Below are positions 33,257 through 36,974 of a DNA stretch of 36,974 bases, in pieces; within the stretch, counting starts at the first letter, position 1, and each line of letters begins with the position of its first letter. Source of the stretch: Prochlorococcus sp. MIT 0701 (GTDB lineage: Bacteria > Cyanobacteriota > Cyanobacteriia > PCC-6307 > Cyanobiaceae); contig NZ_JNBA01000017.1 in NCBI RefSeq assembly GCF_000760295.1, positions 1-36,974 of the forward strand, read 5' to 3'. The notes under the pieces were generated by a model. The model saw only the letters and a list, made by a program, of their open reading frames with translations. It did not search any database and was not told where the DNA came from. The translations under genes and the position numbers were made by a program.

Positions 33257-34081
33257 TTGAACCTCTTGCGGCCTTCTGTCGCCTCTGAGCAAGCGTTCGC
33301 GAGCACGATCACGGTGCGAGAGAACCTGCCCAGCCTTGTGGAAGCTGTTGTGGATGCACTGGAGGGGCATCTAAGGCAGCGGCTGGGGGAGCAGAGGCCG
33401 AAACCGCTTGGCTTGGCGACAGGCCGCACGATGGTGCCGATCTATGCCGCACTGGTGGCCCGTGTGCAGCGTTGGCCAGCTGATGAGCTGGAGCATTTGC
33501 GGCGCAGCTGGTGCAGCTTCAATCTCGATGAGTATGTGGGTTTGGGGGCAGCTGATCGGCGCAGCTTTGCGGCCTATATGGCGCGTCATTTAGGCAAGCC
33601 GTTGCAATTGAGCCCGCAGCAGTTGCATCTTCCTGATGGAGAGGCGATTAATCCAGAGCAGCAGGCTTGCAGTTATGCCGCTCAGTTGCAGAGTTTTGGT
33701 GGTGTTGGCGTGCAGTTGCTGGGCTTAGGCAGCAATGGCCATGTGGGCTTCAATGAGCCGCCTTGTGGCCCAGATGCCTCTTGCCGGGTGGTGTCGTTAT
33801 CGGAGTCCACCCGGCAACAGAATGCGGCTGCTTTTGATGGTGATCCCAGCCAGGTGCCATCTCAAGCACTCACGCTTGGATTACAAGAAATACTCGCGGC
33901 TGATGAGATTCATCTGATCGTGACGGGTTCAGCCAAAGCAGAGATTCTCAAGGCGTTGCTTAATTCGCCATGCACTGAACAGTTGCCAGCAAGTTGGTTG
34001 CGCAATCATGCTCGGGTTTCACTTTGGGCAGATCAATTAGCTGTTACTGGAGAGAAAGTTTCTGAAGCGAATGTCAGTTAA
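33257..34081 (+). CDS. nagB: Glucosamine-6-phosphate deaminase / isomerase family
   Basis: 274 residues. LGLATGRTMVPIYAAL, FNLDEYVGLG (residues 88-97; catalytic Asp) and LLGLGSNGHVGFNEP (154-168) are the NagB signature, rather than 6-phosphogluconolactonase. It converts glucosamine-6-phosphate to fructose-6-phosphate and ammonia. The start is a TTG directly after the SpoIID-like stop, with GGGAG eight bases before it (33244-33248). Its partner suggests reuse of amino sugars from cell wall turnover. Confidence 0.9.
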   Translation: MNLLRPSVASEQAFASTITVRENLPSLVEAVVDALEGHLRQRLGEQRPKPLGLATGRTMVPIYAALVARVQRWPADELEHLRRSWCSFNLDEYVGLGAADRRSFAAYMARHLGKPLQLSPQQLHLPDGEAINPEQQACSYAAQLQSFGGVGVQLLGLGSNGHVGFNEPPCGPDASCRVVSLSESTRQQNAAAFDGDPSQVPSQALTLGLQEILAADEIHLIVTGSAKAEILKALLNSPCTEQLPASWLRNHARVSLWADQLAVTGEKVSEANVS

Positions 34082-34372
34082 AGTTTGATTTGAGTTTTAG
34101 TTCGTAGCTGCATGCAACGAAGAAAACGATTATTTGGTGGTAGATAATTAATAACGTCGAGATAGTGCGTTATTGGCATAGCCTTTTGCTTACTGAAGGC
34201 ACTTGCTTGGGCGAAGAGGCGTTAAATCTTGGTTGCTAATACTGGGCTTGAATGAGGTTTGTGAACTATCTGGATATCATAGTAATATTGCTATCGGATT
34301 ATTGGAATAGTTGCATTCTTTGGAAAAATCAGTAATGTCTTTTAGGTATAAAATTTTACTTGAGTTTCGGTA

Positions 34373-36974
34373 ATGCGTAATAAGTCTCTTCTGCTTTCAG
34401 TCGCTGTGTTTTTGGCGGCTGCTACGCCATCAATTGTTTTTGATGCTAGTCGAGCTCAGGTCGGTGCAGCAGATGTCGCCACTGAAACTGATTCTGGATC
34501 TGGGGCCGATACAGGCACGGATTCAACGACCGACACAGGCACGGATTCAACGACCGATACAGGCACGGATTCAACGACCGATACAGGCACGGATTCAACG
34601 ACAGAGTCAGATACCACTGCAGAAGCCGACACAGAAGCTGAGGCTGATGATCAACCAGCGGAAATTAGAGGAAACGATATTACAATCACGGGAGATTATA
34701 AATGGGGCGATAGCGAAGTAGATGAAGTGACAGCAGGAACCACAAGCCCATTCTCTAAGATTATTATTAATGAAGGCGGAACGCTTTCCTTGGATGGAAC
34801 ATCAATCACGCCTTCTGATCCGCTTTGGTTGATAAGAGTAAAGGGCGAGCTTGAGGGGTCTTGTAGTGATTGGTGTTTTAAGGGATATGGCGTTAATCTG
34901 TCAAACGGTAATGGTCTTAAATTTGAGGTTGATGGAGCGATCAACCTCAGCTCCTATCAGGGCGTTTCGTCAGCGGACAAGTTTTATGTGTCTGGGGGAG
35001 TCGATATCAAAGGTAATTTTGACTTAAAAGGCGGTGACAACCTAATCAAAATCTCAAATGGAGCAATATTTAAGGTGGGTAAGGATTTTGATATGGGTGC
35101 AGGAAAAGATCAGATTACCGTTGGGTCTGGCCAGCTTAATATTGATGGCAAACTGAATACAGGAACAGGTAATGATTCAATAACGGTTGAAGAGGGAGGG
35201 TCTATTACGATGACGAACTTAAGTCTTGGGCCTAACCCGGGTGACACTAATACGATTACCAACGCAGGAACTTTTACTATTAAAAATTCTTCCACTGGCG
35301 GCTCTGGCAACCTGCAGGCGGGTTCGGGGAATGCCCTGATCACTAATAGCGGGGTTATTGATGTAGCTGGAAACACTCAAGCCTATGCAAACTTTGGCAT
35401 AGATCTTGATAGTGGTAATAACATGATTGAAAACACTGGTTCGATTACAACAACTAAAATTCAAAGTAAGGATGGCGATGATGTTATCAATAACACTGGC
35501 ACGATTACCGCAGATAGCATTTCAATGGGAGATGGTAGTAATACGTTGAGCAACACTACTGACGCTACGATTAGGCTGTCTGGCGCTCTATCTGGAGGCT
35601 CTGGAAATGATGTTATTGAAAACAGCAATTCTACTTTGGTGGCTGCATCGATTAATCTTGGTAATGGGTCTGATAATAATACTCTTAGTAATTGGAAGGG
35701 GCATGGTTCGAGCTTGATGGATGTTTCTGGTGAGATCACCGGAAGTGATAATGGCCATAATGGATCCTTTATGGATACTATTCAGAATACGGGTGTTTTG
35801 AAGGCTGGCAAGATTGATCTGAAGTATGGCAATGACAAGCTGGTTAATAATGAGGGAGGTGTTATTGAGGTCTCGGGAATTATTGATATGGGAGGAGGTG
35901 ACGATATCCTTAGAAATGATGGAACTATGACGGCTGACCGTATCCTTCTCGCTGCTGGTTCTGACACTTTAGAGGTTAATAGCCCCATTAACTCCAGACA
36001 AATAAATGGCGGTAATGATGGTGGAGCTATTGATGTTGTCAGGTTTGGTGCAAATGGCGGAACGGGAACGATTGATGGTAGTAATTATATTAATTTCGAG
36101 AGGGCTGTTCAGGTTGATGGTACATGGAATTACGACAAGGATTTTAGCCACATCCCGCAGTTCGTTGTATCTGGCGGGGTAATGGAGGCAAATGATGATG
36201 AACCGGCCACATTTGATAATCTAACGCTTAAAGGCGGCCAGATTCAGACTGATATCCATGACCACAGCGGGGATTCATATCCAGCACCTATCAAGGTGAA
36301 AGGTAGCTTTAATTATGAGAGCGGCTCTTTAGTGATTAACGCAGAACAGATGACCAACCCTACTGGCTCATTTAACATTATTGATGTTGATGGAAGTGAA
36401 AGTGAGATCAGCGAACTTGCCACCAAAACTACTCTTAGATATGGAGATCAAGAATCTGCTCCCTTCACTGGCCTAGGTAAGGACCACACGCTGGATGAGG
36501 CTGCATTGCGTGATGTTTATCTCGAGAAAGGATCGCTTGTGCTGATAGTAGAGGATAAGACTAAAGAAGACATTGAAGAAGGGTTAGACCCAGGCAATTC
36601 AGGCGGCGGCTCAAGCTCTGGCGGCGGCTCAAGCTCTGGTGGTGATTCAAGCTCTGGAGATGATTCAAGCTCTGGAGATGATTCAATCGATGAGCTGCTG
36701 CCAGGTTGCGACGATGACGAGGATCTCTGTGACATCATTGCCGATCACCCTGATGATGATGATGCAGCGGATGAAGATGAAGCTATAGCTGAAGACATTG
36801 TTGACGAGATTCTTCTACCAATCATTGATTCAGATGGAGATAGTGATGATGATGTTGCTCTGCCATTACTTGACTATGGCCAGCTTGCTCGCCTTGTTGT
36901 CTCTGGACTGATGCCACGCAATGTGGATGGTCCTGGTCAATCAATGTCCACCTACAACAATCTGCTGGTTGATA
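34373..36974 (+). CDS. Large secreted repeat protein (adhesin/autotransporter-like), 3' end outside window
   Basis: Open from the ATG at 34373 to the window edge, 867 codons with no stop. A signal peptide MRNKSLLLSVAVFLAAATPS probably ends near residue 28 (ASRA). Next come four TGTDSTTD units (47-78) and an acidic stretch. Then a long run of Gly/Asn/Asp-rich repeats of about 20-25 residues, such as GDDVINNTGTITADSISMGD and GSGNDVIENSNSTLVAASIN, fits a parallel beta-helix passenger. Near 744 lie 18-base Gly/Ser/Asp repeats and an acidic linker with two Cys (GCDDDEDLCD). The end SMSTYNNLLVD reads like the entry into a C-terminal barrel. Only two other Cys are seen (164 and 168). No domain name can be fixed. 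Confidence 0.8.
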   Translation, partial: MRNKSLLLSVAVFLAAATPSIVFDASRAQVGAADVATETDSGSGADTGTDSTTDTGTDSTTDTGTDSTTDTGTDSTTESDTTAEADTEAEADDQPAEIRGNDITITGDYKWGDSEVDEVTAGTTSPFSKIIINEGGTLSLDGTSITPSDPLWLIRVKGELEGSCSDWCFKGYGVNLSNGNGLKFEVDGAINLSSYQGVSSADKFYVSGGVDIKGNFDLKGGDNLIKISNGAIFKVGKDFDMGAGKDQITVGSGQLNIDGKLNTGTGNDSITVEEGGSITMTNLSLGPNPGDTNTITNAGTFTIKNSSTGGSGNLQAGSGNALITNSGVIDVAGNTQAYANFGIDLDSGNNMIENTGSITTTKIQSKDGDDVINNTGTITADSISMGDGSNTLSNTTDATIRLSGALSGGSGNDVIENSNSTLVAASINLGNGSDNNTLSNWKGHGSSLMDVSGEITGSDNGHNGSFMDTIQNTGVLKAGKIDLKYGNDKLVNNEGGVIEVSGIIDMGGGDDILRNDGTMTADRILLAAGSDTLEVNSPINSRQINGGNDGGAIDVVRFGANGGTGTIDGSNYINFERAVQVDGTWNYDKDFSHIPQFVVSGGVMEANDDEPATFDNLTLKGGQIQTDIHDHSGDSYPAPIKVKGSFNYESGSLVINAEQMTNPTGSFNIIDVDGSESEISELATKTTLRYGDQESAPFTGLGKDHTLDEAALRDVYLEKGSLVLIVEDKTKEDIEEGLDPGNSGGGSSSGGGSSSGGDSSSGDDSSSGDDSIDELLPGCDDDEDLCDIIADHPDDDDAADEDEAIAEDIVDEILLPIIDSDGDSDDDVALPLLDYGQLARLVVSGLMPRNVDGPGQSMSTYNNLLVD
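34511..34606 (+). repeat. Four 24-base tandem repeats (TGTDSTTD)
   Basis: Units at 34511-34534, 34535-34558, 34559-34582 and 34583-34606, nearly identical at the DNA level (the last ends ACAGAG, giving TTE). In frame, so unit number may vary between strains. Confidence 0.92.
36602..36685 (+). repeat. 18-base tandem repeats (GGGSSS drifting to GDDSSS)
   Basis: Four full units and one partial unit: GGGSSS, GGGSSS, GGDSSS, GDDSSS, GDDS. Units start at 36602, 36620, 36638, 36656 and 36674. The drift from Gly to Asp runs in order along the array. The frame is kept. Confidence 0.88.

Follow-up and report, generated by a model that had tools for sequence, protein, structure and literature searches.

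A probable classical autotransporter gene, interrupted by a contig end, in Prochlorococcus sp. MIT 0701

We identified at the end of the analysed DNA a gene whose product is very likely a classical (type Va) autotransporter with a length of about 1,210-1,270 amino acids. The analysed stretch, hereafter the window, is contig C17 in its entirety (36974 bp), one of 53 in the assembly. Reading of its open frames placed the start of the gene at an ATG at position 34373 on the forward strand, from which the frame extends over 867 codons to position 36973 and lacks a stop codon because the contig stops inside the gene. The window would thus hold the 5' two thirds of the gene; we looked within it for a barrel or a stop and found neither before the contig ended. 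Most likely, the protein is of a known kind that has been little described in picocyanobacteria and that was lost in close relatives. Four lines of evidence (the barrels of its homologues, a barrel tail on contig C29, the synteny of the locus and a beta-helix model of the passenger) make it very probable that the gene encodes an autotransporter of this type rather than a giant protein.

Domain layout and predicted passenger fold

All the features of the gene are encoded on the forward strand. The N-terminus (MRNKSLLLSVAVFLAAATPSIVFDASRA followed by QVG) resembles, as judged by eye, a Sec signal peptide (34373-34456), with MRNK, a hydrophobic core and a likely cleavage site between SRA and QVG after codon 28. 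After it comes an acidic, low-complexity Thr/Asp linker, in which Tandem Repeats Finder detected four copies of a 24-bp unit encoding TDTGTDST (34506-34602; 4.0 copies, 97% match, score 187). The Gly/Asn/Ser/Asp-rich run that follows spans about 500 amino acids (16% G and 11% N) and its BLOSUM autocorrelation peaks at lags of 20-23 (z up to 4.5). Structure prediction, periodicity, motif counts and structural matches delimit in this part of the gene a putative beta-helix passenger (34919-36088) with rungs of approximately 20-23 residues, some of them carrying RTX-like GxGxDxPhi turns. A conserved C-terminal passenger segment (36089-36577), 38-41% identical to homologues, occupies the position of an autochaperone or beta-helix cap. 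Beyond it, about four copies of an 18-bp unit (36602-36686; ~4.2 copies, 89% match, score 85-103 in Tandem Repeats Finder) encode a linker that changes from Gly/Ser to Ser/Gly/Asp. Alignments then revealed a strongly acidic linker (36690-36859) with a C-x6-C pair (C779/C786; LPGCDDDEDLCDIIAD) that is kept in many homologues and, lastly, a conserved pre-barrel segment ending in DYGQLARLVVSGLMPRNVDGPGQSMSTYNNLLVD (36860-36973), where the contig ends and the barrel is missing.

A sequence-only reading of the window had described this succession, from the signal peptide through the two repeats and the Gly/Asn run to the Cys-bearing acidic linker, as a single frame, and we recovered every element. 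It also held that the repeats keep the frame, as they do, both units being multiples of three; variation of repeat length by slippage is possible in this gene. The genomes that we searched contained no second copy of the gene. The same reading could not place the protein in a named family. This stands for the 867 codons, since searches of Pfam (E up to 10), NCBIfam and PDB sequences with the 867-aa protein gave no meaningful match, but not for the relatives, whose barrel is PF03797.

We modelled the passenger with AlphaFold, using as input codons 91-867 of the window protein and three short homologues. The model (pTM 0.69) predicts a beta-helix over approximately residues 183-600, with pLDDT values mostly of 80-95. 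The conserved C-terminal segment comes next, and the linkers are either disordered or modelled with low confidence. The top structural match in VIA-align was the passenger of the UpaB autotransporter (Z 24.6; 322 residues at 3.4 A), followed by 3p4g, an ice-binding RTX beta-helix (Z 23.2), and by pertactin (Z 21.8-23.0). Foldseek alone matched the passenger model to no PDB entry under E 0.001, so the results support the beta-helix fold and no particular relative. The Asn-rich part is therefore predicted to be a beta-helix, nearest among known structures to autotransporter passengers such as UpaB and pertactin, in agreement with the earlier suggestion of a secreted, beta-helix-like surface protein.

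The passenger carries five GxGxDxPhi turns (0.25 expected), which are at least 22 residues apart and present in only some rungs. They are isolated turns rather than the tandem GGxGxDxUx nonapeptides of RTX proteins, for which the window protein gave no Pfam match, and PF12951 (PATR) repeats were likewise absent from the passenger in Pfam searches at E up to 10. The beta-helix and GxGxD-type turns are shared with 3p4g, the calcium-dependent RTX beta-helix from an antifreeze protein of an Antarctic bacterium, which differs in the spacing of the turns and, by the present reading, in the export route. The closest passengers are richer in these turns, with 9-10 copies mostly 21-34 residues apart versus ~0.25 expected (L034 2163-5864, frame residues 235-546; L084 6027-7769, residues 208-465). 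Perhaps each beta-helix rung in those autotransporters has one RTX-like, calcium-binding turn.

Homologous barrels and the missing tail

We searched 400 genomes of the same family (Cyanobiaceae type) for relatives of the window protein. The last 110 residues matched proteins in 15 of the 400, four of the matches being in G008. Searches with the passenger returned only weak matches, some of them to large proteins lacking a PF03797-type barrel, and no relatives were found among viral contigs and phage records. We read 19 full-length homologues (1,102 to 3,707 aa) and all 19 continue for 343-405 codons beyond the NNLLVD motif or a variant of it before reaching a stop, with a conserved barrel C-terminus ending in RASGGVTFQF and variants. 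PF03797 (Autotransporter) was matched above the curated cut-off in six of seven scanned homologues, several of which also have PATR repeats in their passengers. Adding 343-405 codons to the 867 of the window predicts a total of ~1,210-1,272 aa (about 1,250), an ordinary size for an autotransporter. Hence, the earlier description of the protein as very large is not borne out, even if some relatives are truly large. The C-terminus of a homologue, modelled from four sequences, had a mean pLDDT of 44; this low-confidence barrel best matched those of NalP, EstA, AaaA and BrkA, and it had a helix at the segment ending in YNNLLADTLFERLP, where a linker helix would enter the barrel.

In the homologues, the NN-containing segment is also separated from the Pfam barrel by approximately 100 residues, most of them acidic. 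For the conserved NN we considered Asn-Asn autoproteolysis as in EspP; these extra residues speak against a simple equivalence. The linkers before the barrel vary in kind, with Pro/Lys/Asn, Asp/Gly-rich and Gly/Ser repeats (L015 5064-8783 and 9093-15842; L013 2840-6898; L014 3443-8407). From these sequences, the spacer seems to be exchanged freely around C-x6-C and NNLLVD segments that persist.

The earlier reading proposed looking for a C-terminal barrel, and this was seen in the homologues and, as a tail, in the same genome. A barrel profile (A2) run against this genome identified three places: the end of the window, a piece in the interior of contig C39 and the edge of contig C29. The C29 tail comprises 83 codons (102834-103082, reverse strand), lies exactly on the right edge of the contig (103083 bp), and ends in WRASGGVTFQF and a stop, with an aromatic residue at the very C-terminus. 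It adjoins yebC and truB and converges with yebC. On the other side, the window gene is preceded by a nagB-like gene (33257-34081, forward strand) of the glucosamine-6-phosphate deaminase/6-phosphogluconolactonase family, which marks the left side of the syntenic locus. In G003, a genome of the same genus, a single contig carries contiguously the nagB-like gene, yebC and, between them, an in-frame relic (46 codons) of a barrel end. The left part of this region is 91% identical to the window as far as position 34201, 172 bp before the ATG; its right part matches C29 with the same identity, starting within the last 45 codons. This gene order indicates that the edges of C17 and C29 flank one locus. 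By synteny, the C29 tail with its terminal aromatic residue probably belongs to the window gene, the sequence in between being an assembly gap that hides roughly 260-320 codons.

Judging from the same alignments, G003 is a case of loss of the window gene through an internal deletion that spared the barrel end. In G001 and G004, only 0.4-0.6 kb separates the nagB-like gene from the adjacent yebC, with no autotransporter. The locus clearly illustrates the rapid loss of a surface protein, which is present in one species, a relic in its sister and absent from two more.

The barrel piece on C39 was ruled out as the missing tail. Flanked by ksgA- and glutamate-dehydrogenase-like genes, it sits in the interior of a contig of 414 kb; its upstream part is unlike a barrel, and G003 has this relic too. 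The piece belongs to a second, decayed autotransporter locus between these two genes, where only the last part of the barrel is left (G000 C39:203889-204221, L003 about 1390-1835; G003 L062 1331-1708; G002 C2:4131-4471). Stops or frame breaks interrupt the G003 and G002 copies.

Proposed export route and rival explanations

In the established route of type Va autotransporters, Sec export is followed by insertion of the barrel, translocation of the passenger and its folding outside. In the cell, the Sec signal peptide of the window protein would bring the chain to the periplasm, and a C-terminal PF03797-type beta-barrel, encoded mostly in the gap and with its last 83 codons on C29, would insert in the outer membrane. 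The beta-helix passenger would go out and fold outside with the aid of the conserved C-terminal passenger segment, and the low-complexity acidic repeats could act as flexible spacers at both of its ends. This proposed layout, with its putative signal peptide, predicted beta-helix passenger, conserved C-terminal passenger segment and expected C-terminal beta-barrel ending in an aromatic residue, resembles that of UpaB, pertactin, Ag43 and EspP; the acidic low-complexity spacers, the C-x6-C pair and, in the homologues, the ~100 mostly acidic residues before the Pfam barrel set the present proteins apart. The passenger would most likely remain on the surface of the cell, where it could serve in adhesion, aggregation or shielding, a role suggested by its fold and by the one proposed for exported proteins of marine Synechococcus in interactions with other cells (PMC4949707; PMC9387257). 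Surface proteins decide the encounters of these abundant phototrophs with grazers, phages and partner cells.

The locus could also hold two tandem genes, with the barrel of the window gene inside the gap and the C29 tail being part of a second, nearly identical barrel whose duplication broke the assembly. Neighbouring or tandem autotransporters with 88-100% identical barrels do occur in G008, G282 and Synechococcus sp. UW140, where a contig likewise ends in such an array. However, a second gene is superfluous to explain the data and G003 keeps a single relic at the locus. We consider this arrangement rather unlikely; it would alter the gene count and leave the kind of protein the same. It is more doubtful still that the head and tail survive around a broken mid-barrel, making the gene a pseudogene like the C39 relic and the G003 locus. 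Relics of the family are indeed common (C39 in this genome, two loci in G003 and one in G002), yet the frame is open throughout the 867 codons and the 83-codon tail alike, and the tail still has its stop and terminal aromatic residue.

A giant RTX or SwmB-like surface protein exported by type I secretion would account for the few GxGxDxPhi turns, five against the 0.25 expected, and has precedents in marine Synechococcus, in which SwmB and other giant surface proteins range from >2,000 to >10,000 aa and are reported to have RTX- or cadherin-like repeats (PMC4949707; PMC9387257). The window protein is similar to them in being strain-specific, repetitive and probably exported, and differs in its predicted size of ~1,250 aa and in belonging to a family with its own barrel. 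The putative N-terminal signal peptide, recognized by eye, and the lack of a match to calcium-binding RTX repeats also argue against type I secretion, which is refuted in the main by the C-termini of the homologues, all of which reach the barrel soon after the same point. This explanation is, therefore, highly improbable, and a type Va autotransporter continues to be the preferred reading.

Distribution and evolution of the barrel family

The barrel profile, relics included, matched 44 of the 400 family genomes (6 of 59 genera), even though little seems to have been written on classical autotransporters of picocyanobacteria. Among 291 sampled genomes of the class, matches were confined to this family. 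Searches of the open-licence literature on autotransporters in picocyanobacteria or Synechococcus found no description of the group, which is weak evidence of absence. The named members (Synechococcus sp. UW105, UW140 and AG-679-A04) have autotransporters that share with the window protein the pre-barrel motif, the C-terminal passenger segment and, very probably, the barrel family. Many of their passengers contain PATR/autotrns_rpt repeats, whereas that of the window protein does not.

Paralogues within genomes have barrels that are 88-100% identical and passengers that are only 26-40% identical, a contrast that hints at a modular surface repertoire. Trees of the C-terminal passenger segment and of the barrel disagree on G219a: one tree groups it with G114/G264 and the other with G008 and further members, on well-supported forks in both cases. 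Together, the identity contrast and this conflicting placement suggest that passengers are shuffled on a common barrel. Faster evolution of the passengers could by itself account for part of the contrast. The four G008 copies do not group by genome in the barrel tree, and gene conversion of the barrel is thus not demonstrated by the tree. One may tentatively propose, at somewhat less than even chances, that picocyanobacteria have a barrel-plus-linker cassette whose uniformity is maintained by recombination or recent duplication, with different passengers being joined to it and lost again, the window gene carrying one such passenger with turns that may bind calcium. If true, a cassette with exchangeable passengers would give picocyanobacteria a fast-changing surface repertoire.

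In G282, two tandem autotransporters (L040 1965-6254 and 6705-11063) have barrels that are 99% identical and passengers that are 31% identical. In Synechococcus sp. UW140, the contig ends inside one of two neighbouring autotransporters (L067 1-1371 and 1705-6159), whose barrel parts are identical over all 1,167 compared bases, as could result from either recent duplication or gene conversion.
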